A DNA stretch of 64,000 nt from Xestospongia bergquistia (lineage: Eukaryota > Porifera > Demospongiae > Haplosclerida > Petrosiidae), in the NCBI GenBank assembly GCA_963965975.1, contig OZ014417.1, positions 7,188,821 through 7,252,820 of the forward strand, written 5' to 3'. The first letter of the stretch is position 1. Each line of letters opens with the position of its first letter. The position numbers were made by a program, and so were the translations under genes. Positions 1,926 through 39,701 of the stretch are shown here, piece after piece. The notes beneath the pieces are model-generated. The model saw only the letters and a list, made by a program, of their open reading frames with translations, had not been told where the DNA came from and made no database searches.

Positions 1926-4900
1926 TTAAATTTTCTTATCTTCATCTTGCATAGCCTCTTCATTAGTGATAATAGTGGGAGACTCTTTAAATTTATCACC
2001 TTTATCCATCATAGTAGTAGTAACATAGCGAGGCTCTTCATCAGACTACAAAAAACAGAAGGTAAACATGTGAATGCATGTGATGTTACTTCTTAATGAT
2101 CATTTAGATGAATGTATGCATAGATGAATGGGATAGACAGTACAATTTGGTGGATCATTGACTTCCTCTAGGTGCAGTCCAAACTTACATCATGCTTTTC
2201 CTCAGTGTTATCTTCAATGTTATTGGTATCAGTCAAGTAGTTTCCAGAGGTATCCAAACCATACTCTTCTTGCTGTGATTGAGTGGTCCTAATTCGCACA
2301 GCTAGTTCATATTTACCAGTACGACCAGTAATACGACCTAAGAGAGTAAGCCAGATCTCACGAGTGTCTTCAGTTCGAACCAAAGTTAGAACAAACAGCA
2401 AGATAGAGTGGATGATAGCCAAGAAACTAAAAATGTATTGGGTTGCAATTGAGACATCACCAGTAATGTTAGCTTGAGTGCCAACTAAAGCAAAGATCCA
2501 GATGACATCAAATACAATTAAAAGAATCATTCCAACAAAGAGATGGGTGACAACAGAGTCTTTCCGGACTTGTTTTTCAGCTGTGGTCATTGATGAAGAA
2601 TGAGCTAGCACAACAGATATGAGATGGAGTATCAAAGAAAGAACAGTCAATACCGCAATAGGAATGACATAGCCATAATAGAATGTAGCCTCCTGAGGTC
2701 GGCAGCTGAATAAGAGAAAGAGAGAGAGAGAGAGATCAATTCCTACAACATCATCTACTAAAACTTACAAAGCATTGTCCACAACATAATACTGATGTCC
2801 AGCAGCAGCAGAGATGATAACAGCCAGTGTAGAAATAACTGTAAAGGAAAGATAAGCAGTAACAGTAACATTAATGGAATCTTTAAAGCACTTTACTCAC
2901 TCAAGTTAGCAATGAGCATGATAGAGAAGTAATAACGTGTAAATGGATTAGATCCAATGCCCATTTTAAGTTTAACAAAATAGAACAGTGCTTCAGTGAA
3001 TAAGAACATAAAGTAGACAATACTGAAGAAGTGAAAGAATCCAGAGAATACACCACAGAATCCTGTAATAAAGGGGAAATTACTATAATCTACTATCAGT
3101 AGTTCAGTAAGCCCTAGACTAGTAAACATCAGGACTTACTACAGTGACCTAAGATAGCTACCACTAATGTCAGTACATACAAGAGTAGCCTATGATAGTT
3201 ACAATTAGTAAGCTCTAAATCAACGTGATGTAGTTACTATATAGTACCTGTTATATCAGTAAATGTTGCTGCAGTGGCAATGATGAACACAACATAGAGA
3301 ACCAAAAGTATCAGATGAGATGCAATGAAGATACGTCCTTCAGGACAATGACGTTGGGAGCTAGAAGGACAAGGCAAATAGATATTACTCTGAAGTTGTG
3401 TTTGACCACATGTCTGATAGATGCCATCAGATCACTTTAGGACATTATATTATAAATATGCTACTTTGCTCTATATTTATTGGCATACTATAACAATTTA
3501 ACTTGATGCTAATGACTATCTTATATTATGAATATTGGATTGGTTGTAGCTCAAACATTTGTTAATATCAGTAATCAGTAACTTTGTAAGCTTAAAACAA
3601 CAACAACCATGTGATTGATCAATAATTGAGCTAATGAGCATTATAACAATAGTAATAATATTATAACTTATTGACTATTACTTAGGTCATCAACAGTTAC
3701 ATTAATAGTATAAGAATGTGTACTAGCCCTCAGTTTATTTTAATACTTGTACATTAACTATCTCTTTTGCTAACTATTCTCTCGGTCCTCACAAAATCTA
3801 CCAATTATTATAAGAATAGACAGTGTTTAATATAACTTACGATGATGCAATGTGACTGATAACTGCCAAGACAATAAAGATAAGTGACAGACCCAGACCT
3901 ATAAACAGGATAACTTGAGCTTCATATTCAAGTTCTTCAGTTGGAGGAGGTACTGTTGTGGGTGTAGGTGCGGGTGTGGGTGTAGCTGTCTCTATATCCT
4001 ATGTACAATTGACAAGTTAAATAGACAAATAACATCACAATGTTTTACAGCATATTTGAGGCATTTAAAGTAATATCTTTGACTATCCATGAACATTAAA
4101 GTAGAGAATACTACATGTAATCTAATGTGGGCTATAGTATTAAGAAGATATTCCCTTACCACAATGATAGTAAAACTTGAGAGATGGTTACATGAACATT
4201 GAATAGTTGTGTCACTTGGATTGCTAGTCATAGCACATCCATCAGTGGACCAATCTAAATCTAAATGTGAAAATAACAAAAGAAGATTTGTAAATATACA
4301 AGAGCAGTGTTTGATTTAAGCAGATATCATCTAGTATCAGTATATCAATACTTACTTGTAATACTCCAATAGACACAACGAGGTGTACCAGCAACATTTG
4401 TATTTCTTTGGAATGATAACTGAATAGAGTCTGACAAACCAGTGACAGTTATACGAGATCCATTTGAATAGACATCAGCAGATATGACAACACTAACTGT
4501 TTGTACTTGATTGGTGGAATTATTTCGTACATATAAATCACTGTCTGTAAAGACACCAAATGACACACGAGCTGAGGCAATTGATCTTCCTTGGAACAAA
4601 GAGTTTGGCAAAGAGAGAGAGCCACTAGGATTGGAAGAATCTCCTGACAGAGAATCATCATCAAGATCACCATTGCTATTCAATTCTACAGAGAAACTAA
4701 GTCCAGTGAAGCTAGATACTTGAACTTGTTGAACTTGTAATGCTAGTTTAGGACGAGTAAATGTAACATTATCTCCTCCTCCAAGATTGACATTAGCTGC
4801 AATATTATCAAGGAAGTCCAAAGCTCTGAAAGAGAATGCAGCACACATCAGGTATTAGATTTGCAGTTAAAAGATTACATAAATTCCTTCTATGTGCATA

Positions 4901-6535
4901 CTCACATAACAAGCAATGCATGTATCTATAATACTAAACAATACGTGTATCTGTAATGCTAAACAATGCATGTATCTATAATGTTGGAAAACCATCTTAC
5001 TTTTGAGGTCCTCCAGTACTTTGTTGACTTCTTTGAAGGGCATCAGAAGGTACATCAAGTAAATTATCAACAGTAGTCAGTAAATCATCTAATATCTACA
5101 TGGAATATAGTGTATAATTATAGAGATGTATATGGAGAGGTTCTTAACTTACATCAGGATTATCAAGTGCATCGTCAGTAAAAGTATCTAGTAGATCAAC
5201 AGTAATGCCAACATCAACATCACTGAAAGATGCAGCACTTGATGAAATAGTTGATAACTGGTCAGCTGCATCAGAAGTATTGGCCACCTAAATAAAGCAT
5301 AAAATGATAATTCCATTTCTATTATCATATTTTCATTTGAGATTTTTTTATGCTATTGTAAATCCTAAAACAAATAATTATTAGTCTTCTTTAATATCTT
5401 TATTCTATTAAAGTTTTTTATTATAATGTTGCATCGATAATCCATTCTCAGGTACTTACATGTCCTCTAAATCCTACTCTAACAACCTCAAACCCATTCT
5501 CATATACCCTTAATTCCATTCTTAACTTACAGTAGAGAGTTCACAGAGGCTTATGGTAGTAGCATCAAATACACACTGAGCAGTATTCGGAGTGGTCCAA
5601 ATACCAATTGATGTAAAGTCACCAGTACAACTTCGAGTAGCAAAGGCACCAAATGCTCTTGTCTGAAAGTAAAAGAAACAATTCACATGAATAAAGAGGA
5701 ATAATAAGGAATACTTGGAATACTGTGAATAACTGAGGAATATTACAGATTAAACAATGGAGAAAGGCTTACAATGTTTCCACATGGACAAGAGACCTGA
5801 ACATTCTCTCCAATTCCAACCTCAGGCCATGTAATAGTGATAGATGTACCAGAAAATATCAGTAATGTTTCAGAAAGACATCCATCTGTAAAAATTAAAG
5901 GATGGACATTGAACCAGTCCACTGTACATATTAGAGTAAAGGTAATAATTAATGTATATATAATACAGTCTGTCCAGTGAAATCTGTTTGACTAGTACAT
6001 TATTTTGCCCTTAAAATTCAGAAATTATTAATACTACTGACCAAATCTGGCTACAGGAGAGAAACTGAGAGAAGGATTTGATTGAGCCACTTCAGAGAGA
6101 ATATTGTCAAGACCACCAGTAATTCCACTTGTATCAGCATCAACAGCAACACGCATAGTGAATATAATCTGAAGTCTACAGTAGAGAAGTTGATTATAGA
6201 CAAGTCATAACACATATACATTGTCTCTCTCTCTCTTACCTAGGCAATGTTAGAGCACTGATGTTATAAACTATCACTCCAGGTGACACTTCTTCATTGA
6301 GGAACATATCTCGTGCCTATAAATAAATTTATTCCTTATAGTACATACAATTTTGATAAATTCATAAAATATTTCTTGTACTTAATAATAGTTACACCTT
6401 AGTCTACTAATAATAGAACAGCAAAAAATGTGTGAAAAGTATAACTTACTTGTTCTACAGCATCTTCTATTGGATTTTGTCTCTTACGACGACTACTTGG
6501 ATTGATGGTCACATTAGACAAGTATTGTCTTACAT
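1926..6535 (-). CDS. Receptor C-terminal part: furin site, HRM, GAIN/GPS, 7TM, tail (15 exons)
   Basis: Exons in translation order: 6450-6535 (contains RRKR at 6480-6491), 6240-6316, 6042-6175 (a short unassigned, possibly SEA-like stretch), 5773-5885 and 5531-5662 (HRM-like: TWPEVGIGENVQVSCPCG, then ATRSC, then W and C), 5153-5287, 5001-5095 and 4356-4825 (GAIN), 4160-4260 (GPS: CVYW from the previous exon, then DGC, CSCNHLSSF), 3841-3998 (Thr/Pro-rich stalk plus TM1), 3248-3360 (TM2), 2901-3062 (TM3, begins GFCGVF with the conserved cysteine), 2769-2838 (TM4), 2189-2705 (TM5-7), 1926-2045 (tail, ends DEDKKI). The intron at 3361-3840 (480 nt) holds nothing recognisable. The HLS tripeptide is the form needed for GAIN self-cleavage, so two cuts (furin-type and GPS) are possible. 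Confidence 0.88.
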
Positions 6536-9500
6536 CTAGCATAAAAGAATAAAATAAAATAATGAGCTTAGTAATAGTAATAATATAGTAATATTGTATA
6601 CCAATCCTTCCTTAACAAGCTATACAATATGAAGTTGTTGTCTTAATGAGAGATTTTCTTATAATCCATTTGTACCAATCCCAGTATTAGTAAGTAATTG
6701 ACATACCTTGAATGGTAACTAGAACATTAGAAGACTGAGCAGTCCCTTCAGAGTTTGTCGCACGACATCTGTATTGGCCACGATCTTCGGGTGTAACTTT
6801 CTCAATAACAAAATAGGGCAAGTTTCGTCCAGTTAAAGTTTGTCCTTCTTTAAGCCATTCTATTCTAGGTTGTGGTGCACCTGTAACTATACAGGTCAAA
6901 TTGATGAGACTGCCAAGTGTGACATTCTGAGGAGTGGGTGGAGTCACGATAGAGGGTGGTGAATTAACAGTTACTATGATCGAGAGAGAAAAGAAATGTT
7001 AAGAGAAAGTGCAAAAGAAGAGTTGCATGTAACGTATTATGGTACATTTATGCTATAATCTTGCCAAAACACACATTTATATAATCATCACAACAAAGTA
7101 GCTTTTAATTATACATCTGATAGCCAATTGGTACAATAGAACCAGTGTTTTTGTGAAATTGAATTTTTCTGAAACCTCCATCAAATTAACATTAAAAAAT
7201 AATTCTTGCATTGGCAGACAGAAGCAATCACATAAATTACAGTATTGCATGCTGTTAGATATTTTTACCAGGTTGATCGCAGTGAGTTCCAATAAAGTCA
7301 GCAAAACATTCACAATAGTAGCTATTGTCTCCATCAACACAATAACCATTGACACAAGGAGTTTGTTGAGTATTAGGTGGATTAATGAGACACTCATTAC
7401 GAACTAACAGAGAAAGAAAAACAATATAATGTATGTTCTTGGAGTGATGAATGATTGTAAGTAATAGCAGTAACTATATGTACTGACGCAATGCTGAAGG
7501 CTGTAACTAATTCTATCTTTAAAATTGCATTTAAATTATATATTAATACAACTACACTTATATAACAACCTTATAATAGAATGTTCTCTAGATTAACCGT
7601 AAACTTACTTTGTACAGTGACATTGAAGGAATCAGTGATTGAGGGAAGTATGGTGTTAACTGGAGGTACAGGAGGAGTACGACATCTATACAAACCACCA
7701 TCTCCTTGAAGTACTTGCTGGATTCTTAGATTGCTAGTGGTAGTGTAGAGGAGTGTAGTTGGGTTTTGTACTGGGGCACCAGTATTGATTTCTACTCCTC
7801 CAGATGACACTAAGAGTTCATTGTCTTTGAGCCATGTTACTGTGAGTCCTGGGAAACTATTCATAACAGCACAACTGAGAGAAAGTTGGTCTCCTTCAAT
7901 GAATGCTGATTGAAGGCCTGTTAAGGCAACTGTTGGAGGAACTGGAAGCAAAAAGAAAGAGATCCATTAAATATCATTATTTCGGTAAACTTACCAAATA
8001 CAGTCAGAGTAGACAAACTGGTGTTAGGATCACCTGCAGAGTTATTACCAGTACACATATAATTTCCACTATTCTGGAAAGTAACACTTGATAAGAACAA
8101 AGTTGTGGTATAACTGTTGTTGCCAATAGAAAAAAGATTGGAGATAGTATACTGTCCACCAGATGTAATAAGTTGAGAACTGCCATTAACAAATATAAAA
8201 TGCCACTGGATTGAAGGCATTGGTTTAGCACGGAAGACACAAGTAAATGAAGCATTGGAGTTTTGTAAGACTGTCACATTTGTTGATGGCTGAACTATGG
8301 CTGGAGGGACTGAATAGCAGAAAAAGAGTACAAAAATAATTGTGTTGACTTAATAGACAATACTAAGTTGTACCTAATTCAATCGTTTACTTTATTTAAC
8401 ACAATAAGCAGTATGAACTTAAATAATAATCAAGTAAAACAATAACAATATTAAAAGAGGCCATTATAGTCAAACATGACTTACTTTGTACTGTCACAGT
8501 AAAGGAATCAGAGATTGAGGAAAGTATGGTGTTTACAGGAGGAACAGGAGGAGTACGACAAGTATATATACCTTCATCTCCTAGACTAACTTGCTGGATT
8601 CTTAGATTGCTAGTCGTAGTATAGAGGAGTGTGCTGGGGTTTTGTACAGGAGTACCAGTACTGATTTCAACTCCTCCAGATGACACTAAAGTATTACTGT
8701 CTTTGAGCCATGCTATTGAGAGTCCTGGGAAACTATCAGTGACTGTACAATTGAGAGAAAGTGAGTTTTCTTCATTAGGTGGTACTTGTGGTCCTGTTAG
8801 AGTAACAATTGGAGGAACTGCAAGCAAAAAGAAGATAATGATCAATTAAATATTATCATTCCAATAAATCTTACCAAATACAGTCAGAGTGGACAAACTG
8901 GTACTAGGATCACCTGCAGAGTTACTACCAGTACACTTATAATTTCCACTATTCTGGAAAGTAACACTTGATAAGAACAAAGTTGTGGTGTAACTGTTGT
9001 TGCCAATGGAAAGAAGATTGGAGATAGTATACTGTCCACCAGATGTAATAAGTTGAGAACTGCCATTAAGGGATATAAAATGCCACTGGATTGAAGGCAT
9101 TGGTTTAGCACGGAAGACACAAGTAAATGAAGCATTGGAGTTTTGTAAGACTGTCACATTTGTTGATGGTTGAACTATGGCTGGAGGGACTGAATAGCAG
9201 AAAAAGAGTACAAAAATAATTGTGTTGACTTAATAGACAATACTAAGTTGTACCTAATTCAATCTTTTACTTTATTTAACACAATAAGCAGTATGAACTT
9301 AAATAATAATCAAGTAGAACAATAACAATATTAAAAGAGGCCATTATAGTCAAACATGACTTACTTTGTACTGTCACAGTAAAGGAATCAGAGATTGAGG
9401 AAAGTATGGTGTTTACAGGAGGAACAGGAGGAGTACGACAAGTATATATACCTTCATCTCCTAGACTAACTTGCTGGATTCTTAGATTGCTAGTCGTAGT

Positions 9501-12500
9501 ATAGAGGAGTGTGCTGGGGTTTTGTACAGGAGTACCAGTACTGATTTCAACTCCTCCAGATGGCACTAATGTATTACTGTCTTTGAGCCATGCTATTGAG
9601 AGTCCTGGGAAACTATCGGTGACTGTACAATTGAGAGAAAGTGGGTTTTCTTCATTAGGTGGTACTTGTGGTCCTGTTAGAGTAACAATTGGAGGAACTG
9701 CAAGCAAAAATGGAGAGAATGATCAATTAAATATTATCATTCCAATAAATCTTACCAAATACAGTCAGAGTGGACAAACTGGTACTAGGATCACCTGCAG
9801 AGTTACTACCAGTACACTTATAATTTCCACTATTCTGGAAAGTAACACTTGATATGAACAAAGTTGTGGTGTAACTGTTGTTGCCAATAGAAAGAAGATT
9901 GGAGATAGTATACTGTCCACCAAATGTAATGAGTTGAGAACTGCCATTAAGAAATATAAAATGCCACTGGATTGAGGGCATTGGTTTAGCACGGAAGACA
10001 CAAGTAAATGAAGCATTGGAGTTTTGTAAGACTGTCACATTTGTTGATGGTTGAACTATTGCTGGAGGGACTGAATAGCAGAAAAAGAGTACAAAAATAA
10101 TTGTGTTGACTTAATAGACAATACTAAGTAGTACCTAATTCTATCTTTTACTTTATTTAACACAATAAGCAGGATGAACTTAAATAATAATCAAGTAAAA
10201 CAATAACAATACTAAAAGAGGACATTATAGTCAAACATGACTTACTTTGTACTGTCACAGTAAAGGAATCAGAGATTGAGGAAAGTATGGTGTTTACAGG
10301 AGGAACAGGAGGAGTACGACAAGTATATATACCTTCATCTTCTAGACTAACTTGCTGGATTCTTAGATTGCTAGTCGTAGTATAGAGGAGTGTGCTGGGG
10401 TTTTGTACAGGAGTACTAGTACTGATTTCAACTCCTCCAGATGACACTAAAGTATTACTGTCTTTGAGCCATGCTATTGAGAGTCCTGGAAAACTGTTGG
10501 TGACTGTACAATTGAGAGAAAGTGAGTTTTCTTCATTAGGAGGTACTTGTGGTCCTGTTAGTGTAACAATTGGAGGAACTGCAAGCAAAAATGGAGAGAA
10601 TGATCAATTAAATATTATCATTCCAATAAATCTTACCAAATACAGTCAGAGTGGACAAACTGGTACTAGGATCACCTGCAGAGTTACTACCAGTACACTT
10701 ATAATTTCCACTATTCTGGAAAGTAACACTTGATATGAACAAAGTTGTGGTATAACTGTTGTTGCCAATAGAAAAAAGATTGGAGATAGTATACTGTCCA
10801 CCAGATGTAATAAGTTGAGAACTGCCATTAAGGGATATAAAATGCCACTGGATTGAAGGCATTGGTTTAGCACGGAAGACACAAGTAAATGAAGCATTGG
10901 AGTTTTGTAAGACTGTCACATTTGTTGATGGTTCAACTATGGCTGGAGGGACTGAATAGCAGAAAAAGAGTACAAAAATAATTGTGTTGACTTAATAGAC
11001 AATACTAAGTTGTACCTAATTCTATCTTTTACTTTATTTAACACAATAAGCAGTATGAACTTAAATAATAATCAAGTAGAACAATAACAATACTAAAAGA
11101 GGCCATTATAGTCAAACATGACTTACTTTGTACTGTCACAGTAAAGGAATCAGAGATTGAGGAAAGTATGGTGTTTACAGGAGGAACAGGAGGAGTACGA
11201 CAAGTATATATACCTTCATCTCCTAGACTAACTTGCTGGATTCTTAGATTGCTAGTCGTAGTATAGAGGAGTGTGCTGGGGTTTTGTACAGGAGTACCAG
11301 TACTGATTTCAACTCCTCCAGATGACACTAATGTATTACTGTCTTTGAGCCATGCTATTGAGAGTCCTGGGAAACTATCGGTGACTGTACAATTGAGAGA
11401 AAGTGGGTTTTCTTCATTAGGTGGTACTTGTGGTCCTGTTAGAGTAACAATTGGAGGAACTGCAAGCAAAAATGGAGAGAATGATCAATTAAATATTATC
11501 ATTCCAATAAATCTTACCAAATACAGTCAGAGTGGACAAACTGGTACTAGGATCACCTGCAGAGTTACTACCAGTACACTTATAATTTCCACTATTCTGG
11601 AAAGTAACACTTGATAAGAACAAAGTTGTGGTGTAACTGTTGTTGCCAATAGAAAGTAGATTGGAGATAGTATACTGTCCACCAGATGTAATAAGTTGAG
11701 AACTGCCATTAAGAAATATAGAATCCCACTGGATTGAGGGCATTGGTTTAGCACGGAAGACACAAGTAAATGAAGCATTGGAGTTTTGTAAGACTGTCAC
11801 ATTTGTTGATGGTTGAACTATGGCTGGAGGGACTGAATAGCAGAAACAAAAAGTATAATATTAATCATGGTGGCTTAGAAAACAAGTCTATTAAATGATA
11901 TTATTGATAGGGTACAGTTAGAATTATAACTAATAATATTAATGCGTTACTAAATATAGAATACTTACATAATACATTGACAGTCTCTGTTGTTGTATTA
12001 AGAACAGTTCTGTCATATCTAAAGTCAGTAATATTGATCATACAAATATACTCTCCAGCATCAGACAACATGAGATTATCAAAATCCAGTACAACTTGAA
12101 TAGCATATAATACATCACTATGACACACATATTGAGAACCATTATAATAGCATGCTGGCCGTGTTAGACTAGTCACATTAATATTATATTGATCAGGAGT
12201 GTTGGTTAGTCTTTGGCCATTTCGATACCAACCAATGGAATTAACAGAGAAGTTACCAACTTGAAGATGTTCAAAATAAGCAGTACAAGTCAGTGAGAGT
12301 GTGTTATCAGGACCATCTATAGCCATACCATCACTTGTACTGTTGAAGAGGACTGCATCAAAGGAGAGATTAGTAAGAGAGAGAAAACAATAAAGATAAA
12401 AATTAGAATGACCAGTAAAATGTACATATAGGCCATAAACAAACTCTTTGAAAACCCTCAAACGTAGCACACAACTTTGCTTATTTAAAATGCTTCAATG

Positions 12501-18500: not shown

Positions 18501-19522
18501 AAAGGTGTTATCTATTGGTTCAGTTACTTACCATGATGTCTATTATACTGACATATTAGGTTTGCTTCATGGTTAGTGAAACCATTTCTACACACTTGAC
18601 CATATGCATTTTTTAAACACAACACAACCTGATAGAAAATACTATATTGAGTAGTCTCATATCGATAGTCAAGATAGTTCAAATTAGGTTGGAATTGTTG
18701 ACATGGTCGTGGTACTAAGAGAGAGAGAGAGATTAATCCTCCACACTACTAATACAAACTTACAGTTCACACATGTGATAACAGGAGTATTAGGAAAGGA
18801 CTGACAGCCATTGGTACTTGAAAACACCTCACGATTACAACTAGAGAGATCATAGTTCAAAACTGGACATGTCAAATTAGATATAACAGTAGTGGCTATA
18901 CTGTTTACACCAAAGTCAGATGTATTACCAATAATAGGATAAGGACGACCACCTATAAAGAAAATAAATTGTTAAAATACAAATGTGTGTTTATAACTCT
19001 ATCTATTACTCCAGATAAAAATGATATACACATATAGTAATCCTATAAATATTATTAATTTAGAGATACTTTTATCTGGCAGTACAGTTTGTAAATGCTC
19101 TAGAAATTTTAAATGCATAATAATATAATTAGTTATATAAAGTCAATGTCTTCTTTAATTTAATGTAAAGTTTAGAAAAGTCTTCTAATTATAATCCAAT
19201 AAATATAATCTGATGTCATTCATTATTTTCTATAACTCAGTTATATAGTATTACTAGACTATAGAGCTAGTCAGTATCTATATAGTATACTACACTAACC
19301 ATAATATCCTCGACTAGAGCCACAGAAAGTCACAGTTTCTGTTTGATTTAAGTCTGTACAGAATGGAGCATAGCTACCATTTACACAAATCTCTGGTCTT
19401 CCAATTATAAAAGATGTACTGTTAAAATATGTTCCATAGCCTTGTTCAGCTAAACGAGTGCTATCAGATGAGCAAGAATCTAGTTGAGAAGCTAAAAGCA
19501 ACAACAAAAAAAACAAAGATAT

Positions 19523-19571
<49 letters not shown>

Positions 19572-20978
19572 TGACATAGAGAGACAAAGAGAGACACAAA
19601 GAGAGACAGAGACTTACAAACACAAGTAATAACAGCAGGTCCTCCATTATTATTACATCCATTAGTACTAGTAGTCAAATTATAAAAGCAACTATAATCA
19701 TTCCAAGAGGTTACACCAGAGTTACAAGAAAGGTTGTACACACCAGTAGAAGTATAGTCATAACGAAATTGATTCCCTTGACCAAACAAAGCATAAGGAT
19801 AGCCTACATAACTACTGCCTAGAGAAGTCTGACAGAGAACATTAGCCACTTCAGCTGTTAGTCCATTATTACAGACATCAGTGTAAGTTCTATTAACACA
19901 AACTTGAACATTTCCAATCTGATAAGTAGTTCCATTAGGGTATTGTCCATTGACATAGGAAGTTGAATAATAGTTGTCACCAAATCTCACACTAGGAGAA
20001 TAGCACGTGTCTCTGGATAAAATTGAAGCTAAAAGAAGTTAAAAATAATTGTTAACCTTTATATTTACAATTCAACCATCTGTTTACTGACCATTCACCT
20101 ATTAATCTATTTACTTATACACTATTATTTATCCATCAATTCATCCATACCATCATAACAATAGAGTACAGCACTGTCCATATTGTTAGTACACAATGTA
20201 TTGTTAAGTTGGATAGAACAAGATGAAGGATCGGAATAAGAGTAGTACTGAGGACAAGAGAGATTCAGGTACATACTAGCATTGCTCATACCACCAGAAG
20301 GATTACTAGAGACAACACTACCATCTATAAAGAAAGTATCAACATCACTACTTAATACAATTGTAGATAAGTATATGATATTCCTTTATCAATGATATAA
20401 TAGAAATGTTTTAATATGCACTTACTTGCATAGCCAAATTGTCGGCAAAATATCATGGCATCCATCTCTGTGATACTTCCACAACAAACTGAGCCCCATC
20501 GTCCTGAATCACAAAATTCTATAAAACCATAAGTTCCTGAAGTGCCATTTTCATAATAGCTAATAGAGGTTTGTGTGAGACGAACTTGACCATAATTTCT
20601 GCATTCTGTAATATATAAGGTACAATTTGTAATTAATAATACAAACTAGTAGTAGTACCAAGTAAATGATAAATGTTTACAATATTAACTAATTATGCTT
20701 ATAATTGTTAATTCTAGTTATAAACTAATATTCAAATTACACAATTTAGGCATTAGATTATATAGAGTCTCATCTCTATAATTATATAGTATAGATATTA
20801 CCTCCTGTACAGTTAACTGTTAAAGGTTGAGCAGTACATTGTCCCATACGGATAGTTTGATTACAATTGAAAGAAGAGAATCCACCACTCCTGGGATCAT
20901 TTTGACAGTAATGAAGCACAACATTAAGATTAGAGTCAGCTGAAGAGTATATTATATTATAAGGGATGATTGTGTAGT

Positions 20979-21028
<50 letters not shown>

Positions 21029-23684
21029 TAAAATACTAGCAACAATAACAACAATGATATCTTACTTGAGATATAAGAACTTTGATCACTGCAGGCTGTA
21101 CTAGTAAAGTATTCAGAATATGATGTATCGCTGCAGACATCAACAAAATTGCTATCAATACAAACTACAACTCGACCAGTATAGGCAAATGGACCCAGAG
21201 GTGACTCATATTGAGAGTAATTAGCTAGAGTAACATAGCTACCACTACATTCAGTATCAGAGGTTCCTAAAACATATTAAGACAATGACATGTCCAGTAA
21301 ATTGACATTAGTCCATCTATCTTGTCTGAAGAACCATTCATCATTTCCTTTGTTCAACTATTCTATCAAATCACTTACCCAACCACTCATTCAATTCATC
21401 CATTAAATCATCCAACCATTCATCACTTTATCATCTCTCTTTCTTACTCATCCACCCAATCACCAATCCATACATCTATAGCCATTCACTTACTCTCAAT
21501 ACAAGTCAGTACAGACTCATCACCATATGAACCACATCCTCCATTACCCATTGTATAGTTACATCCACTAATGTCATTAGCTTCAGGAGAACAAACAATA
21601 TTTGTTATTACTTCATTTTCATATACATAATAGTCTGAGGGCTTTCCAATATATTGACCCCAAAGAACTTGATAATTACCTATAATAGAATATTATATTA
21701 TATACAATAGTTATGGGACATTAATGTTCACTAAAGAAGATATACATAATATTGATGAAACATTATTTTATTCACATATCCATGCATGCTATGCCCCACC
21801 CCCATGATTGCAAAAGCTATCATTGTTAATTAAAAACTAGAGAACCATTCAGCCAAATCTAGAATTTGTTTCAATTAAGAACTTATTCTATTGAAGATTA
21901 AGGCATATATATTTTAAAGGTAAAGTCACAAAAATATCAGCAGACTATGCATTACAAGCACAGCTTGATGTTAATGGGAGAACATGTAATTTTTACTCAC
22001 TACAGTTAGTTAAACAGTACGTTGGTTAGTAAACAATAATTGTCTTCCTATCAATTCTGGTCCTCAATACAACAAAAGAATAGAATATACAACAAAAACT
22101 GTAATGTGTCTATCTGTTACAAATCAAGCAAAGGTGGTAGTATCTGATATACTCATGTGATATCAAAATATAAATATTGTTTTTTTATGTTGGTCAAATT
22201 CTCACCAGAAACAGCATTATCACAAACACCATCCAAGGCCTCTGTGTCTGGTAGGGAACCTCCTGTAGTATTCAATCCTTGGCTACATACTTGATAGAAA
22301 GTATCATTGACACAGACCTCTACACGACCAGTTCGTATTGAAGTATTATTGGAAAATGAGAAAGTACTACTGTTACGAAGAGTAAAGAGACCAGCACAAG
22401 CTGGAGTGACTGAGGAAGGAAGGTTACATCATAATTTTGAATGCAATACATTTATTTAAAATTCAGAATTTAAAGGAGAGCAAAGTTAGGACCATTAATT
22501 AGCTAATTAGTAATGCTAAGAGATAAATGAAAGTTTGTTTAGGTTAAAATGTCAAATACACTCAGCTAGACCCTCCCCTTGGCTGATACATGAGAAGGGT
22601 CTACTGCAATATATCAGAGAACTTATAACAAAGCTTACTTCCTACCACCCACACATATAATCTGAGTAATGAAATCAGATTGGTCAACTTAAATTTAATC
22701 AATCGTGATCTTTGCTAGACCCTTCTCATGCATCAGCAAAGAGGAGGGTATAACTTGTTAGACTACACATACACACACACTCTCTCTTTATATAAATATA
22801 TTTATCTTACTTCGAGTACAAGTGGCATAGATGGTAGAATATTGAGAAGTACATGAGCTGTTATTAGTATTTGTAGTAGTACTGATATTACACATTGGTA
22901 GAAGAGAATAGTTAGATGGACAATTAATGGAATCAATGATAGGACCAGCATTTGATCTAGATGTTGTATAATAGGATGATCCATCTAGTAAAAGGAACAA
23001 AGAAGAGAATTAATTTGGCATACAATGTAAGTGAAGCAATAATATAAGAATAGTAAAACAGATTTGGTAATCAGTAGATTAATCAGTAAAATAAATAATA
23101 TAATTATGTTCCTGGATGACCCAATCAAATTTTAAAAATTTATTTGTTTAATATCAATGCTACAGAGTAATGAGCATTATATTGATACAAATATTAACCT
23201 CAGCTGTCAGGCTCAGCATGAAACTCATAAATTAAATGTACTCTATACAGAGAGGGAATTTAAGTTACACATAAATAATTACCATACAGAGATGATGTAT
23301 ATATTATATTGTACATATATTTGTACATGTATATTATAGTCTACAAACTGCAGTATACAAAGAATATGATGTCTGGTTCTTACTGTAATAGTTCAGTTGA
23401 TGACAGGTAGCATTTACTACAGCAGTAGCATTGAGATTGGCATCACTGTGACCACAGACATAATGATATTCATTGTTATAACAGACCTGCAGATAACCAT
23501 TAATTCTTTGGACACGTCCACGGTAATCAATATTGGAGTTGGTATTGTTGGAAAAAAGTCTAACATCTCCATTACTACAGATTGGAACAGGTATGACTGT
23601 AAGAATAATAAATATGACATTAGAATAAATAGGTTTGTTGCTATTTACTATATTTGTTTGACTGCATGCAAACTCACAGACACA

Positions 23685-23720
<36 letters not shown>

Positions 23721-26700
23721 CTTTTACCTCGTTCACATTGAATGTATAAGGTAGCATTATAACTACTACAGAGACCATCAGTAGTTGTGTTAATAGAACA
23801 ATCAGAGAAGGAGTTAACATTCACAGGACAATTAATGGTATCAATGATGGGATTATTTTGTGATAAAGAAATAGAATAGTAAGTACGAGCTGAAAAGAAA
23901 AGAAAAATTATAAAATCAAATTTGTAACTAAAGTTATATGTTCCAAACGTAAAATTATGCTTATAAAAAAGTACAGAAAGATCTACAGTGTTTGTTAAAA
24001 TTAAATAATTGAGTTGGACTAACAATAAACCCTCATCCAATTATTAAACAATAATTTATCAACATAAATCAATAATGTACATTTACTCTCTATAATACAG
24101 TAACATTATTAAGTATATAACTTACAGCTATAACCTAAGAATTGACAGGCACTCTGTGTTACATTATTTAGATTATAGTTGATATCACTCTGAGCAGCAC
24201 ACACAAAACGATATCGATCATTAGTACATATTCGAAGATATCCATTAATATACTCAACAAGTCCACGAGAATCAGTTAAGTTATAAGTAGAATTGACATA
24301 AAGTTGAATTTGACCATCACTACATGTTTCTATAGCTAAAGAAAGTGATAAAATATGACTCTTTGTGATTTAATATGTCTAACAATGATAAAATATGACA
24401 TGATACATTATGTCTTATATATTACTCATTATGACACATTATGAGATGTTATAGTCATTATGATTATGACTCATCATGACACAATATGACTCTTAAACAT
24501 ATAATACTTACAGTTAAGACATGCTATAATAGCCACATCATCATGAGAAGTACATTCTCCAGTATTTGTAATACCAATACTACAAGAAGATAGATTAGTA
24601 GTAGATTGTGGACAAGAGATAGTGTCAATAATAGTGCCTGGAGAATATGGTCCACTGTTTGGAATAATATAGGCAACTAATAGAGAGAGAATAATACCAA
24701 TAATATTTAGTTGTTAATATTGAATATAATTAATATAATACTGATTCTTTACACATTGACTAAAATCAGCCATCTTTTCAATTCTATTGTAATAGCTATG
24801 CATATTGCTACTAATAATTTAATTCTATATATACATGTGATGTATTCCATATATATTTTATATAATATACATGTGTAATAATAATTATAGCTTTTCCAAT
24901 TTTCCATGTACGTTGGATAAATAACAACACTAACATTATTAATAATAGGAAGAGTACACTTACCATCTCTATATCCCAAGTCAGTACAAACAATTTGTGC
25001 AATTGTATCATCAATAGAAGCAAAGGTATTATTAGCACAGATACTGTAGTATGTTCCATTATAACACACTTGTAGGTAACCACCAAAGCCTTGATATGGA
25101 AAGCCATCACTAGGACGAAGTGATGACTGATATTGTATTCTGTACTGGCCATTGTAGGAGCATTCAGATGGTGATGGAGTGGGGGTAGGTGGAGTAGTTG
25201 AAACTGAGAGAGAGACAGAGAGACAGAGAGAGGGAAAGAATCAATTATTCACATATTTATACTCTCACTTACTACTTGTACAAGAGATAACGGCATCACC
25301 ACCATAACTATTACAGCTATCAGTACTAACAACCATGGCAGTAGCAAAGTTACATGAATAGTATTCAGTACAGTTCAAGAAAATAAGGACTTGTTGAGCA
25401 TTTGTAGAGTTTCCATACATATCTCTAGAACCACCAATAGGATAAGTGTAGATAAATCGATCTATGGTAAGAAATGAAATAATAAAAGTAACTAATAATG
25501 TCATATTATAATGATATTACAATGAACTGCTTTACTAGTTAACTGTTGTTATATGTATGTAATGTACAATTAATACCATTCTTGTTAATTTCCTTTACTA
25601 TAATAGCTAGATATACTACAGTATATATATCAGTAATATTTACTGTTGTATCCATATGAACTGTAGCAGATATATTCAGCTAATGTTTGGTCTAGAGCAT
25701 CATTACACACTGGAGTATAGGTATCATTGATACATACTTCAACACGACCTATGAAAACACGGCTACCATTGTTGAAATATCCAGAGCCAGTGTTAACAAA
25801 TCTAGTTTGAGTCCCAAAACATTGATATGGTTCTGTAGAGTAAGAAAGTCCATAAAATGCATAAAAAAGTTTCATTTCAATTTTAAACTACATATATAGA
25901 AAATATAGATGCAAGAAGTTGTATAAGATAAACTTTAAAGATACATTCTTTCTTTTTAATCCTTACCTTGTCGACATGTGACTATACCAGCTCCATCATA
26001 ACTTTCACAGCCATTACCAGTTTGATATAAACTCTTACAGACACCAAGATTGAAAGCATTCATTGGACAAGTATAGTTATATATGCCATTAGTGGTCAGA
26101 ACAGGAAAATAATCAGTTGTTTCATTGCCAAACAGTGAATAGTTATAAGCTTCTCCAAGATAATTGACTCCACTACATATATCCATAGCTTCAGATGAAT
26201 GTAATATATTTGAACAGATAGCTGCATAAGTGTAGTTTGGAGTACAATATAAAGGATAACCAATGTGATATTGAGTGCCATTAGAATAGGAGATTGTTGC
26301 TTGATCATTTAGGAACACTGATTGACTTGAGTAACAGTTATTGTCAACTGAGAGAAAGAGAGAGAGAGAGAGAGAGAGCTTGTAAACATATGCACATAAA
26401 GGGACACATGTACATTTGTAAATGTTATGCCAATTTGTTCATTGCATAGCTAGTATCCATGCAAAGTACATACATATAACACTAATACACTATGGTACAT
26501 ACATATAATACTAATACATTATGGTACATACATATAATACTAATACATTATGGTACATACATATAATATCAATAAATTATGGTACATATAATACTAATAC
26601 ATTATGGTACATACATATAATACTAATACATTATGGTACATATAACACTAATACATTATGGTACATACATATAATACTAATACATTATGGTACATACATA

Positions 26701-29700
26701 TAATATCAATAAATTATGGTACATATAATACTAATACATTATGGTACATACATATAATACTAATAAATTATGGTACATATATACAATACCAATATATTAT
26801 GGTACATATAACACTAATACATTATAGTATATACATATAATACTAATACATTATAGTATATACATATAATGCCATCCATACCTGCAACACATTGTATGAT
26901 AGCATCAAATTGATGTGAGGTACACAATGGATCATCAGTAAAATTGTAAGAACAATCACTGAAGGAATAGAAGTATGAAGGACAGCTGACATCAATCAGG
27001 ACTTGGTCAGCATCACTACTACCATATGAAGAATCATATTCAAAGAGTGTACCACCTTAAAGAGGAGAAATATATAGCAAAACTCTGTGCATCCTAGTAA
27101 AACGACTAATGATACATTAATTAACTTCAGTAAAATCAGTAAAACATAGCTAACAAATCATATAAGTCAGTATACTAGAAGAGATTAACCACGTGACCTA
27201 CCAGTGTAGCCAAGACCAGAACATGCAGCTTGAATACCCATTAGATCTGAGTCTGTCAAATTACTACCATCATAACATATAGAAGACCATTCTCCATTAA
27301 CACACACTTCAAAAATACCAGCAATAGCTAGTGTACCATTATTTAATTGATAGGTATTGTAGTTCCAAATCCTTGCATTACCTTCAGTACATACTGTGTT
27401 AAAAAGGAGGAAAATGAAGGGAGAAAGAGAAAGTAATAGAATAAAAGAGAGAGGGAAGGAGGGAGGAGAGAGGAAGGGAATAAAAGTGAGAGGAAGTAAG
27501 AGAGAAAAGGAGGGAGTAAGAGAAGAGGGAGAGAAGGAGGGAGGGAGAAGGGAAGAAAGAGAGCAATATTATATGTAAAAGGAGATCAAAGTACTTTTAC
27601 CTTCTCTACATTGCACAATGACTGGTGTACCACTGCAATTACTGGAGATATTATAAGTACAAGAGCCTAAGTAGCCATATGGACAGTCTAAGTTGCTAGC
27701 ATAGAGTCCACTAGAATTGCTACCATAGAGATCACTATTCCAGGGGATGATTGTTGCAATACCTAAAGTTAATAGGATGTAATTACTATTTATGCATCAT
27801 TGAAGAGACATCCATATATATAATAGTTACAGCAAAGAACATGATGGTAGACATTGTATTTAATGTTGCTAATGTACAAAATATGCAACATTAGTGTATG
27901 TAATGGCATATTTATACTGTAAAGAAAAGATCAACACCTTAAAATATCATTTCTATGGAAATTCTATATTATCCATTAATCTCACTGTTTCTGTAGCCAT
28001 CATTATTGCAGGCAAGTGTAGTTAACTGTGTGACATTCAAGCTATCACTGCAGATATCAACATATTGCCCATTATTGTCACAAGCTTCAAGTCTGAATGT
28101 TGTAGTTCGTCTTACAGCATACTCCATAGTAATTTGATAAGATCTTTGGAAATTACCAGGAATACATTGTTGAGCTAGCAAGAGACAGACAGAAAGAAAG
28201 AGAGAGTTATTATAGATATAACTCAACTTGGAATGGTAATTGTGTGTTACTAACCATTAATACATGTGACAACTCCATTAAATCCACTAGGACAGGAACT
28301 AGATACATTGTAAAAACATTGACTGTCAAAATCAGTGATGTTATCAGGATTAATAGGACAAGCAATACTAGTGAATACTATATTATAAGTATAGTTTGTT
28401 AAGTTATAATCTTGGAATTGACCAAACCCAGGAAATGAAAATCCACCACCTGTAAAGAGAATATCGAATACTTTAAATCATCTTAACAATAGAATCATCA
28501 ATGAAAACACTGTAATTACAATGTCACTATTATTATTAACAAAAGTTATTGCAAGGGGCTTCTAGTTTTAAACTCAAAGGTGTACAAGTGGATAACATAC
28601 CATTATATCCAGAGCAAAAGTAATTAACATGATCTTGAGTGATGCCAGACAAACAGGTTGGTTGATAGATATTGTTATAACAGATTTGAGGTACAGCCAC
28701 ATTGAGTGAGCCTCCATTGGGCAAATTAAAGTATGCCTTATTAGCAAGTCTGTAGTCGCCATCATTAGTACAGTAGTATGGGTTAGCAATAACTAAAGAA
28801 AAGAAAAAATGAAAGAATACTGAATAGTCTCCCATCCTCTAAACAGTCCCATTTAATGTTGCTTAACATCAATGATAGCCGAGAGGCTAGACCACTTGGC
28901 TGTCACTGACCTCCTACGATCCTACGTAAGTCTAATTATTGTGTTATAATAATCTCTTACATCTTCTGCATGCTAAATATGCATCACCATTAATGTCACA
29001 TGTACTAGTATCATCCACATCAATGTTACAAGAGCTTAAGCTTGAGTAGCTATAGGTACAATTGATGTAATTGATGATAACAGAATCATCCCGAAATCCA
29101 TAACTTGGTAGCAACAGGGCTCCATCTGTGTATGAGCACGTATATGCATGCACAAATGTGTGAGTGTGTGTGTGTGTGTGTGCGCGTAAGAGAGAGACCA
29201 AGAGACAAAGAGAGACAGAGAAAAAGACAATTAATTATTGTAATATTATCAATCTACTAAATATATAAGGTAGTATGATATGTACAATTCTATTTCACTA
29301 TCAAATCCTGTCATTACATGAATGTCTTAATCTAATAAGAAGTACATTGTACATTATGTGTATTTTAATGCTAACTTAAGCTAATATTAATAACATGTAT
29401 TAATTTTAGGGATTTCCACTAATACAAGATAAGGGTTAAATTTTCTATAGTATAGGCTAAACATTCATTTCATAGATTAGATTGGGCATACCTCAGAATC
29501 AATAAAATAAGTTTGTAGTGAGCTGTTAATCATCAATAACCTTATTATTATTTATTAATGTTATCATTATTCATTATTCATTATAATTTTAATTATGCTT
29601 CAGGAAGTATCCACATAAAAAGCATGTGTTGTTATTATTATAAAAGCATCTACTTTATTCAGTCATCTAGTTAGTTTTATTTCAAAAAGAAAGAAAAGTT

Positions 29701-30092
29701 CTCTTTAGAAATTACACTAAAAGTTAATACATGTACTAGATCTGATAGATTTTAAAAAAGCTTGAAATCAATTAAATTATAATGCAATATATAATAAACT
29801 ATAGTCACTTACCATAATAGCCTAGATCTCTGCAGGCTCTTTCAGCTATATCATTATCAATATAAACATCAGTACCATTCAAACACACATTAATAAATGT
29901 GTTGTTATAGCACAACTCAAGGAGACCATAAACAATTTCATATGAACCATTTAGTCCAACAACTTCAGTGTCCATTTGACGATATTTCAAGTTAACTTGT
30001 CCTTTGTAACTGCAATAACTTTGTGAGTTTGCTAATAGGACATAACTAGTTAATAATAGAGCTATGAAGGTAATCACTAATGAACCCTTCAT
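1926..30092 (-). CDS. Giant adhesion GPCR: signal peptide, 23 SRCR, 12 Ig, EGF, HRM, GAIN/GPS, 7TM
   Basis: Spliced gene of 72 coding exons that I joined by GT-AG sites and frame. Exon lengths sum to 15,201 nt, an exact multiple of three, giving about 5,066 residues. Order: signal peptide (starts MKGSLVITFIALLLTSYVLL, ATG at 30090-30092); SRCR 1-23 (about residues 25-2897); Ig 1 (about 2898-3025); five tandem Ig pairs (to about 4105); EGF (to about 4150); Ig 12 (to about 4239); RRKR (about 4255-4258); HRM-like domain (about 4339-4420); GAIN with GPS (CNHLSS, predicted cut between L4680 and S4681); seven helices; 39-residue acidic tail exon; stop TAA 1926-1928. This is the adhesion (B2) GPCR layout: extracellular recognition modules, self-cleaved GAIN, 7TM signalling in the plasma membrane. 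Ligand and G protein are unknown. SRCR, Ig and EGF introns are almost all phase 1. Exon limits are inferred from splice consensus; alternative splicing of modules is likely but not visible. Confidence 0.88.
6707..7403 (-). CDS. Receptor EGF-like domain and membrane-proximal I-set Ig domain
   Basis: EGF exon 7269-7403: six cysteines in EGF spacing (NEC, TPC, GYC, YYCEC, THC), ending GTHCDQP. Ig exon 6707-6973 begins VNSPPSIVTPPTPQNV and has the I-set hallmarks LTC, IEWLK and DRGQYRCRATN. Both are symmetrical phase-1 exons, 135 and 267 nt. This Ig is diverged from the tandem Ig pairs upstream of it. In the A' copy it differs at two residues (E to G and T to I near GQTL). Confidence 0.87.
7609..11832 (-). 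CDS. Receptor Ig 2-11: five tandem pairs of Ig exons in an 881-bp unit
   Basis: Two Ig exon types alternate. Type A (315 nt: TVLQNSN, SFTCVFRAKPMPSIQW, SGNYKCTG): 11518-11832, 10637-10951, 9756-10070, 8875-9189, 7995-8309. Type B (333 nt: VTLTGPQVPPNEE, LSLNCTV, IAWLKDS, DEGIYTCRTPP): 11127-11459, 10246-10578, 9365-9697, 8485-8817, 7609-7941. The spacing is 881, 881 and 880 bp between the first four units, introns included, and they are nearly identical; the membrane-proximal pair (7609-8309) is clearly older. Each exon has phase-1 ends, so adding or losing a unit keeps the frame. Confidence 0.9.
11969..12352 (-). CDS. Receptor Ig 1, joining SRCR array to Ig array
   Basis: Single 384-nt phase-1 exon. 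Hallmarks: LSLTCTAYFEH, IGWYRNGQRL, DAGEYICMIN. It has an extra CYYNGSQYVCHSD insert with two cysteines between the sheets, which the other Ig domains lack. Acceptor after GATGCAG, donor GTAAGTAT. No close copy elsewhere in the window. Confidence 0.85.
12701..16148 (-). CDS. Receptor SRCR domains 19-23
   Basis: Each domain is made of an 'a' exon and a 'b' exon. SRCR19 15942-16148 and 15554-15727; SRCR20 15257-15442 and 14993-15175; SRCR21 14781-14933 and 14502-14723; SRCR22 14098-14277 and 13420-13602; SRCR23 13139-13306 and 12701-12877. SRCR23a is the most canonical (GTVRIADG, YTGRVEFCYFGEWRTICG, DAAVSCALAGF). In SRCR21 the usual split point is moved: the 'a' exon stops at FCNNTL and the 'b' exon carries VCGQNYIGFPY. 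SRCR22a uses a less usual donor, GTCAGT. The intron 13603-14097 holds a 36-bp minisatellite. Confidence 0.86.
13846..14056. repeat. 36-bp minisatellite in the SRCR22 intron
   Basis: About six tandem copies of a 36-bp AT-rich unit (ATTAATTACC plus TATTATATATAATTATATAT and TTTACT). Because 36 is a multiple of three it yields a false repetitive open frame on the plus strand. Confidence 0.85.
16217..19491 (-). CDS. Receptor SRCR domains 14-18
   Basis: SRCR14 19300-19491 and 18764-18952; SRCR15 18532-18714 and 18248-18421; SRCR16 17807-17995 and 17303-17485; SRCR17 17049-17225 and 16778-16963; SRCR18 16485-16691 and 16217-16390. All are phase-1 exons of 174-207 nt. SRCR17a reads CRDGDFRLYNN then CVLGSWASLCND; SRCR16b reads GFVGTPSG then ATITCQR. 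These two domains are the closest relatives of the start-less SRCR exons at 39755-42228. The intron at 17486-17806 and that at 18953-19299 hold only AT-rich sequence. Confidence 0.86.
19618..23596 (-). CDS. Receptor SRCR domains 9-13
   Basis: SRCR9 23384-23596 and 22811-22984; SRCR10 22206-22409 and 21494-21679; SRCR11 21066-21266 and 20802-20978; SRCR12 20426-20605 and 20151-20324; SRCR13 is one 411-nt exon, 19618-20028, with both halves fused. SRCR12a is canonical (GQVRLTQ, FIEFCDSGRWGSVCCG, DAMIFCRQFGYA). Introns: 21680-22205 and 22985-23383 show no gene; 22410-22810 carries an inverted-repeat element; short (GA)n runs sit beside the acceptors of SRCR11b and SRCR14a. Confidence 0.86.
22567..22750. 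mobile_element. MITE-like element with about 35-bp terminal inverted repeats
   Basis: Left arm 22567-22602 (TAGACCCTCC ... GGGTCT) is inverted at 22717-22750 (AGACCCTTCTCATG ... GAGGGTA) with a few mismatches. Total length about 184 bp, no coding capacity, inside the intron between SRCR10a and SRCR9b. TA dinucleotides at both ends could be a target duplication. Family not recognised. Confidence 0.55.
23728..26347 (-). CDS. Receptor SRCR domains 5-8
   Basis: SRCR5 is one fused exon of 381 nt (25967-26347; begins VDNNCYSSQ, ends IVTCRQG). SRCR6 25644-25832 and 25273-25461; SRCR7 24964-25203 and 24512-24676; SRCR8 24126-24335 and 23728-23889. SRCR7a opens with a Thr/Pro/Ser linker (TTPPTPTPSPSE), the only such spacer seen in the SRCR array, so it may act as a hinge. 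SRCR8b (PIIDTINCPVNVNSFSDC) is the parent-like version of the 3' half of the chimeric exon at 40088-40288. Confidence 0.86.
26460..26870. repeat. 25/29-bp minisatellite in the SRCR5-SRCR4 intron
   Basis: Roughly 14-16 tandem copies of a unit around TAATACATTATGGTACATAC, mostly 29 bp with interspersed 25-bp shortened units. False plus-strand frames (HTYNTNTLWY repeats) arise from it. It fills nearly the whole intron. Confidence 0.85.
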
Positions 30093-31478: not shown

Positions 31479-31510
<32 letters not shown>

Positions 31511-31530
31511 CATACATATACATACATACA

Positions 31531-31562
<32 letters not shown>

Positions 31563-31594
31563 CATACATACATACATACATATACATACATACA

Positions 31595-31626
<32 letters not shown>

Positions 31627-31654
31627 CATACATACATACATACATACATATACA

Positions 31655-31706
<52 letters not shown>

Positions 31707-33935: not shown

Positions 33936-34010
33936 ATTTCGTGCTTGCTTTTTTGAGCAGACTTGTCTCGTTAGCAGCACTTCACACACCAAAGAAACAT
34001 CAAAGGGTGA
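33936..34010 (-). other. Noncoding first exon (5' UTR) of the giant receptor
   Basis: Minus strand, ending at a consensus donor (AAAT then GTAAGTATG). Its core, CTAACGAGACAAGTCTGCTC followed by GCAAGCAC, is matched by a second exon at 43384, also directly before a GTAAG donor. Conservation of exon, donor and promoter at two places supports a real first exon. It would splice to the acceptor at 30102. The 5' limit is estimated from the TATA-like box. Confidence 0.6.
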
Positions 34011-34037
34011 ACACTGAGCAACCAGCACTCGCTGTTC

Positions 34038-34081
34038 TTATAACTGACAGCACATTTGAGCTACTATTAGCTCCGCCCACA
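34038..34081 (-). promoter_or_regulatory. Core promoter of the receptor: TATA-like box and GC box
   Basis: TTATAA at 34038-34043 and, about 28 bp further upstream, GTGGGCGGAG (34071-34080), a GC-box type element rare in this AT-rich DNA. The homologous first exon at 43384 has the same pair (TTATAA 43489-43494; CTCCGCC on the plus strand, 43515-43521) at similar spacing. Confidence 0.55.
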
Positions 34082-36064: not shown

Positions 36065-36103
<39 letters not shown>

Positions 36104-37370: not shown

Positions 37371-37372
37371 TT

Positions 37373-39700: not shown

Positions 39701-39701
39701 T

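Follow-up and report, generated by a model that had tools for sequence, protein, structure and literature searches.

A putative giant adhesion GPCR with scavenger-receptor and immunoglobulin repeats in the sponge Xestospongia bergquistia

Among the closest described counterparts of the gene considered here are two adhesion GPCRs of the sponge Amphimedon queenslandica, Aq712029 and Aq715659, which according to the covered part of Krishnan et al. 2014 carry multiple SRCR (scavenger receptor cysteine-rich) repeats (PMC4302439). The legend of Figure 4 in the same paper names SRCR, Ig, EGF and HRM domains, whose order may be drawn in the figure itself. Our subject, gene 1, lies on the minus strand of a 64,000-nucleotide stretch of the genome of Xestospongia bergquistia (the window: contig OZ014417.1 of assembly GCA_963965975.1, or C7:7188821-7252820 within the 146.46 Mb and 21 contigs that were searched), and is predicted to encode a very large adhesion GPCR with SRCR and Ig repeats. 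It shares with Aq712029 and Aq715659 the presence of multiple SRCR repeats on an adhesion GPCR, the comparison being one with their published description alone. Sponges are highly specific in the sorting of cells and microbes, yet few links from receptor to signal are known in them.

SRCR arrays of the DMBT1/SALSA type are secreted or single-pass, human ADGRV1 has about 6.3k residues and a Calx-beta ectodomain, and the ectodomains of ADGRG2, ADGRG6 and ADGRL3 are unrelated to that of gene 1 and far shorter. DMBT1/SALSA and other SRCR arrays consist of tandem SRCRs, as does the array described here, whereas SALSA uses a cation site that is incomplete in gene 1. ADGRG2, ADGRG6 and ADGRL3 are the best solved-structure matches over GPS and the seven-transmembrane region (7TM), with a shorter stalk in the ADGRG2 alignment. 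ADGRV1, which a 2026 review calls the largest, resembles gene 1 as a very large adhesion GPCR; in 300,000 of the 412,533 characters of that review there are 0 occurrences of SRCR or sponge (PMC13197933). The product of gene 2, a tandem paralogue of gene 1, would with about 7.8k residues be larger than human ADGRV1. Placozoan C-type-lectin adhesion GPCRs are, in the part of the source covered, a further case, outside the bilaterians, of an adhesion GPCR fused to a recognition domain, although the domain is a C-type-lectin domain (CTLD) and not SRCR or Ig (PMC6321704), and a choanoflagellate GPCR survey contains 0 occurrences of SRCR or scavenger (PMC12716839).

A first protein search with the 916-aa C-terminus gave 10 matches, nine of them Ig proteins and one a GPCR (tardigrade, 25%). 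The GAIN-7TM part as query yielded two proteins, P0012 and P0011, both of which have the architecture of gene 1, keep the H-L-S motif, and match SRCR, Ig, GPS and 7tm_2 above the Pfam cut-off. P0012 is Amphimedon queenslandica LOC109583711, a partial RefSeq prediction of 2,469 aa named "uncharacterized protein". It has SRCR, Ig, EGF-like, Ig, HRM-like, GAIN/GPS (HLS), a proline/threonine-rich (P/T-rich) stalk and a partial 7TM in the same order, and is 43% identical to gene 1 over 70% of the scored region (74% in SRCR23, the last SRCR domain), but differs in having far fewer SRCRs and an extra SRCR-Ig1-Ser/Thr block in front. P0011 is a JGI hypothetical protein of 2,119 aa, encoded in one uninterrupted frame on a 9,582-bp contig and 42% identical to gene 1 over 88%. 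Its six SRCRs match SRCR18-23 (two by Pfam) and are followed by four Ig domains, EGF, an HRM-like domain, GPS, 7TM and a tail; the differences are the number of SRCRs and the lack of an evident signal peptide, so that it is perhaps 5'-incomplete. Since its counterpart in gene 1, exons 33-72, has 39 introns (31 if the eight extra Ig exons are subtracted), P0011 is probably a transcript. A strict furin motif, RQRR, is found in P0011 and a basic RKR cluster in P0012.

Thus, the architecture, for which a search in other sponges had been suggested, is present in Amphimedon. By the same token, the "undescribed system" of the original prediction is not supported, since SRCR-repeat adhesion GPCRs had been reported in Amphimedon in 2014, in the part of that paper covered (PMC4302439), and a RefSeq protein has the same order; we therefore rejected the idea that gene 1 is new in kind. 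Later literature, as far as its covered text goes and with figures, subscription journals and preprints lying outside the search, gave no account of the SRCR-Ig order, of a conserved SRCR23 or of a tandem family (PMC6208332, PMC8242945, PMC12723187, PMC7308585). What is new here is SRCR23 as the most conserved segment, and the size of the protein and its tandem copies also deserve notice.

Gene structure and domain architecture

A splice model built from the DNA covers positions 30092 to 1926 of the minus strand and joins 72 exons in one frame into 5,066 residues with a single terminal stop, all introns (71/71) being GT-AG. The predicted protein consists of a signal peptide, 23 SRCR domains, 11 Ig domains, an EGF-like domain, one more Ig domain, a furin-like site, an HRM-like domain, a candidate GAIN region with the GPS, a P/T-rich stalk, 7TM and a tail, laid out as follows in window coordinates:

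29813..30092, minus strand: exon 1, with the start ATG, signal peptide and first half of SRCR1 (splice model)
12701..30092, minus strand: exons 1-44, 23 SRCR domains (residues ~25-2898), most of them split over two exons, with exons 9 and 24 encoding one whole domain each (profiles, cysteines)
12701..13306, minus strand: exons 43-44, SRCR23, membrane-proximal and the most conserved segment (cross-species identity)
11969..12352, minus strand: exon 45, Ig1 (Pfam Ig models)
7609..11832, minus strand: exons 46-55, Ig2-Ig11, arranged as tandem units of two Ig domains and ~880 bp each, the unit of exons 54-55 being the most divergent (Ig models)
7269..7403, minus strand: exon 56, EGF-like (homologue identity; Pfam insignificant alone)
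6707..6973, minus strand: exon 57, Ig12 (Ig models)
6042..6535, minus strand: exons 58-60, a segment without domain assignment, with a furin-like RRKR at residue 4255 (sequence)
5531..5885, minus strand: exons 61-62, HRM-like, below the Pfam cut-off (weak profile match, homologue identity)
4160..5287, minus strand: exons 63-66, candidate GAIN region and GPS, with the predicted cleavage point between H4679-L4680 and S4681 (GPS profile)
2189..3998, minus strand: exons 67-71, P/T-rich stalk, seven transmembrane (TM) helices and start of the tail (7tm_2 profile, PDB matches)
1926..2045, minus strand: exon 72, end of the cytoplasmic tail and stop (splice model)

The model was obtained by dynamic programming (71 exons, 4,958 residues including the stop) with local corrections, namely the start ATG, an added TM3 exon and longer donors for exons 19 and 35. 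Introns, as computed before two donors were shifted by 30 and 18 bases, measure 49-687 bp with a median of 151, and those at the domain boundaries measure 348 bp (SRCR/Ig), 205 bp (Ig/EGF), 295 bp (EGF/Ig) and 171 bp (Ig/next segment). Exons 2 to 57 (56/56) are entered in phase 1 and have lengths that are multiples of 3. The way in which the model is built ensures that its internal exons are open in the model frame; in a control with the same 70 intervals, 7/140 other frames and 8/210 opposite-strand frames were open. A retrained gene finder kept 67/72 exons of gene 1, overran the stop and gave 75 exons and 5,031 aa, so that the finder by itself is inexact. A hydropathy scan rose over its threshold solely at the signal peptide and the 7TM region, with no segment in between up to residue 4694, and Rfam and tRNA scans of the window returned 0 matches. 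Because the boundary introns are short and each homologue carries the same domains within a single protein, one gene extending from the SRCR domains through the 7TM is strongly supported at the level of sequence. This agrees with the earlier proposal of one reading frame, 72 exons in consistent phases and about 5,066 residues; the rebuilt model gives the same exon and residue numbers.

The Ig exons match Ig models in 12/12 cases. GPS matches PF01825 with 49.3 bits, above the Pfam cut-off, and contains the motif C-N-H-L-S-S-F, while the 7TM matches PF00002 (7tm_2) with 34.3 bits against a cut-off of 20.6. Compared with the PDB, GPS plus 7TM matched 14 sequences, all adhesion GPCRs (14/14), including ADGRG2, G6 and L3 (best ADGRG2, E 2.5e-14). 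The assignment of the predicted product to the adhesion GPCRs (class B2) is thus supported, as is the count of 23 SRCR and 12 Ig domains in the original prediction. Between S4681 and TM1 the P/T-rich stalk has 35 residues (window 4160-3841, exons 66-67), compared with 40 in each homologue. Other profile searches that had been suggested gave less: apart from SRCR, Ig, GPS and 7tm_2, which were found, HRM scored 19.2 bits, below its cut-off of 26.2, EGF was insignificant in the gene 1 protein alone (E 0.19), and Pfam GAIN models had no match in that protein. The HRM segment of gene 1 is 50-56% identical to its counterparts in the two homologues (43-56% over all three pairs), the EGF-like segment is 42-56% identical to both homologues, one of which scores as EGF, and the GAIN region is 28-34% identical to theirs.

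The SRCR array and its membrane-proximal domain

When aligned, the SRCR domains share exactly eight invariant cysteine columns (23/23 domains), and 16/23 match PF00530 as single domains at E<=0.01, the other 7/23 falling below this level. The array holds 103 N-glycosylation sequons, compared with 55.1 +- 6.7 in shuffles, and the homologues are also above their shuffles (20 vs 11.8 +- 2.8; 21 vs 12.2 +- 3.1). A sequon is located at Cys5 in 11/23 domains.

In SALSA, mutation of the cation site abolishes ligand binding, and the covered part of the source proposes it as a general SRCR ligand site (PMC7043408). Residues of site 2, taken as the equivalents of SALSA D1019, D1020 and E1086 and positioned by counting from the cysteines, form a complete acidic triad in 0/23 SRCRs of gene 1 (0/23 also with N and Q allowed), and the aspartate pair is seen in 0/23. 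Five control SRCRs, which are the genome's top scorers and hence a biased choice, have the aspartate pair in 3/5 and the full triad in 2/5. Among the homologue SRCRs readable by pattern (five each), a single one, in P0012, has the aspartate pair, without the third residue, and W/L-L-D-[DN]-V-x-C-type motifs are found in SRCRs of loci L001, L004, L005 and L008. The "scavenger-type recognition" originally proposed is therefore weakened, as the SRCR array stands but its classical cation site is complete in 0/23 domains; a fixed protein partner appears more likely than calcium-dependent scavenging of the classical kind. More generally, an incomplete cation site is a warning that an SRCR expansion need not mean pathogen recognition.

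Among gene 1, P0011 and P0012, SRCR23 is 71.3, 73.9 and 77.2% identical, the top of 14 segments compared. For the same three pairs identity is 34-52% in SRCR18-22, 36-47% in Ig1, 53-57% in Ig12, 28-34% in GAIN and 49-58% in the 7TM, two of the latter pairs using the partial 7TM of P0012, and SRCR1-17 have weak matches (24-39%), without order, in the homologues. Exon 43, which encodes part of SRCR23, is identical across the three tandem genes described next; between genes 1 and 2, bases 2-168 of its 168 bases, as well as exon 45, are 100% identical in DNA.

Tandem paralogues and module exchange

Two paralogues, genes 2 and 3, lie in tandem beside gene 1. In gene 2 (67460-111853, in window numbering extended), the 62 exons outside the Ig repeats are present in the same order; the 10 Ig-repeat exons also have matches there, taken as a group rather than one-to-one, and exons 16-32 have two copies, of which one entered the comparison. 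The codons compared contain 0 stops, gaps come in threes or compensate one another, and 64/72 exon matches span both exon ends with AG/GT kept. The gene 2 model, hand-cleaned by dropping nine exons and merging or restoring some by homology, has approximately 7,808 residues, 42 SRCRs (336 cysteines / 8) and 16 Ig domains. Over the 62 exons the ratio of nonsynonymous to synonymous rates (dN/dS) between genes 1 and 2 is 0.57 (231 nonsynonymous, 115 synonymous; p 3e-6), and in the 7TM and tail it is 0.05 (1 nonsynonymous, 6 synonymous; p 9e-4); between genes 1 and 3 the 7TM gives 0.45 (p 0.005). dS between genes 1 and 2 drops from 0.08 to 0.02 over the length of the gene, suggesting exchange of parts at different times.

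Gene 3 (C7:7317375-7342633) is known from matches and one 3.5-kb stretch. Exon 1 of gene 1 is matched at 96% in gene 3, 85% in gene 2 and 78% in a Kunitz-encoding neighbour (see below). Further along, gene 3 matches gene 1 at 96% in exon 24, 95% in the GAIN exon and 88% in exon 71 (TM5-7), the corresponding values for gene 2 being 84-90%, 97% and 99%. Gene 3 therefore looks mosaic relative to gene 1, with N-terminal exons closer than those of gene 2 and a more distant TM5-7 exon. An Ig-repeat query had one match in gene 3, at 70%; we rejected divergence as its explanation, since exon 55 of gene 1 itself scores 72% with this query, and the result suggests that gene 3 is without the recent Ig repeats.

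Two further features of the window belong to this cluster:

31194..52832, no strand: first unit of a 21.6-kb tandem duplication, the second unit being 52831-74469, with 99.977% identity
45823..52832, minus strand: truncated extra 3' half (Ig, EGF, HRM, GAIN, 7TM), broken mid-Ig-exon at 52832 (homology)

The second unit runs beyond the end of the window. As the duplicated segment links the upstream spacer of gene 1 with the 3' half of gene 2, the second 7TM of the window, absent from the original prediction, is a fragment. The repeat starts 1.1 kb upstream of the ATG of gene 1, and may be a recent event or an assembly error. Orphan SRCR exons resembling the array of the Kunitz neighbour occur on the minus strand at 39.7-42.3 kb and 61.3-63.9 kb; some of them appear damaged by eye (a cysteine lost, halves fused), and the exons are probably relics. 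A Thioredoxin_8 (nucleoredoxin-like) exon with 50 bits, in which no C-x-x-C was seen by eye, lies on the plus strand at 37783-38127, with a duplicate at 59420-59764.

The left neighbour of gene 1 (-3463 to about -29990, minus strand) has the same signal peptide and SRCR exons and a long SRCR array with similar units of ~3.35 kb. According to a gene-finder model it continues into Kunitz (75.8, 73.0, 68.8 bits) and TIL (25.3 bits) domains, and no GPS or exon-71 match is found nearby among the matches listed. A fourth SRCR23 is located on the plus strand at C7:1305923-1306440 (89% and 92% by exon) and is followed on the same strand, up to 1312472, by an Ig exon with 71% identity (similar to the value for exon 55 of gene 1 itself), a GAIN exon (28%), GPS and a 7TM exon (27%). 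The order is thus kept while the signalling half is very different, and a head swap between receptors is possible.

At least 145 GPS matches are found among the best 150 of 4,312 candidates, many of them in tandem clusters on C1, C2, C3, C4, C5, C7, C8, C10 and C15, which suggests that the genome holds a large adhesion-GPCR repertoire. Listed SRCR matches (best 150 of 163) lie within 15 kb of these 145 GPS matches in 12 cases upstream on the same strand, vs 2 cases downstream and 3 on the opposite strand; the numbers are 8, 0 and 0 within 5 kb, and 16, 9 and 4 within 30 kb. The SRCRs of the window are not among the matches listed, so the co-location count is low, and 10/12 pairs at <=15 kb are on C3, where they are probably tandem relatives and thus not independent. 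SRCR-adhesion GPCRs seem, on these predicted matches, to be a recurring type in this genome.

Competing explanations and significance

The explanation that we favour, and consider fairly probable from sequence, is that a single transcription unit encodes a giant adhesion GPCR in which SRCR23 binds a conserved partner and a tethered agonist signals. The receptor would be displayed on the surface with its ectodomain standing far off the cell, SRCR23 would bind host matrix, a neighbouring cell or a member of its own family, and the distal, sequon-rich and copy-variable SRCR array may set reach or individual specificity. Binding and a pull on the ectodomain would free or expose the tethered agonist (Stachel), starting with S-S-F-T-I-I-V at the GPS, which would in turn activate the 7TM and G proteins; both the autoproteolysis and the activation by a tethered agonist are predicted at the level of motifs. 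The family itself may have evolved by tandem duplication, change of repeat number and exchange of phase-1 modules between bodies.

Several points count against this explanation. Gene 1 is known from genomic DNA, and P0011 is by inference probably a transcript and probably of sponge origin. The H-L-S motif, which bears out one part of the "self-cleaving" receptor originally proposed, is by itself no guarantee of cleavage, since the HLS receptor ADGRB2 can stay uncleaved according to the covered part of the source (PMC13062082). Structure prediction with AlphaFold gave a mean predicted local distance difference test score (pLDDT) of 30.8 for two single-exon SRCRs, so that cysteines and profiles are the basis for assigning the SRCR fold to the divergent domains. 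Recent exchange may account for the identity of SRCR23 among the tandem genes, given that exons 43 and 45 have the same DNA sequence in genes 1 and 2, and the claim of constraint therefore rests on the cross-species values. Finally, dN/dS of the SRCR array is 0.60 (thirds 0.58, 0.67 and 0.49), without positive selection, for its middle third a value below 1 is not clear (p 0.059), and exons 56-66 give 0.44 with p 0.15.

One may also consider a microbe-sensing scavenger GPCR, whose array binds bacterial or polyanionic ligands in a calcium-dependent manner and reports to the 7TM. We find this unlikely, even if microbial molecules elicit a response of SRCR and GPCR genes in the sponge A. aerophoba, as the covered part of the source states (PMC6208332), SRCR matches are many in the genome (163, the best 150 listed) and the one P0012 SRCR retains its aspartate pair, though not the third residue. 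Gene 1 itself has neither triad nor pair (0/23 for each), 11/23 domains have a sequon at Cys5, and the top conservation falls on a single membrane-proximal domain, more like a fixed-partner site.

A diversifying self/non-self (allorecognition) family, consisting of tandem mosaic genes with variable distal arrays, would fit the differing SRCR and Ig numbers of genes 1 and 2 and the mosaic look of gene 3. It appears rather improbable given that the evidence comes from one genome, that dN/dS is <1, and that the main text of an Amphimedon grafting transcriptome paper contains none of the words scavenger receptor, GPCR, G-protein coupled or immunoglobulin (PMC5450542). Also quite doubtful is a modular recognition-to-signalling locus, in which a hyperconserved SRCR23 would read a fixed partner, sequon-rich distal arrays would diversify by copy number and gene conversion, and heads would be moved between bodies, the array start to the Kunitz/TIL protein and SRCR23 to the distant 7TM at C7:1.31 Mb. 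If this were true, self/non-self or symbiont discrimination in sponges would be GPCR-based.

That gene 1 is a decaying pseudogene or an assembly join is very improbable: the window does contain a truncated copy and a 21.6-kb tandem repeat of 99.977% identity, but the repeat begins at 31194, upstream of the gene 1 ATG, gene 1 is open through 72 exons, its non-repeat exons are in order in gene 2, and the 7TM is under purifying selection. Two or three adjacent genes (a secreted SRCR protein, an Ig protein and a short adhesion GPCR) joined on paper by compatible phases are scarcely credible, and we rejected them: the all-phase-1 SRCR and Ig exons could be joined in many ways, and the left neighbour has the same SRCR head without a GPS or 7TM nearby among the matches listed, so that the head can exist apart, but boundary introns of 348, 205, 295 and 171 bp could hardly accommodate a terminator, a promoter and an exon for a signal peptide, no hydropathy segment exceeds the threshold between the signal peptide and residue 4694, and the homologues carry all domains in one protein and one frame.

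A giant adhesion GPCR of the kind favoured here would combine recognition modules and a G-protein-coupling core in one polypeptide, in an order common to the genome of gene 1, Amphimedon and P0011, and may offer a handle on how early animals sensed neighbours or microbes. SRCR23, with 115 strongly conserved residues, would be usable as bait for its partner, and the tandem cluster, with 23 vs about 42 SRCRs in sister genes, would be a natural setting in which to ask if individuals differ in the length or sequence of the array.

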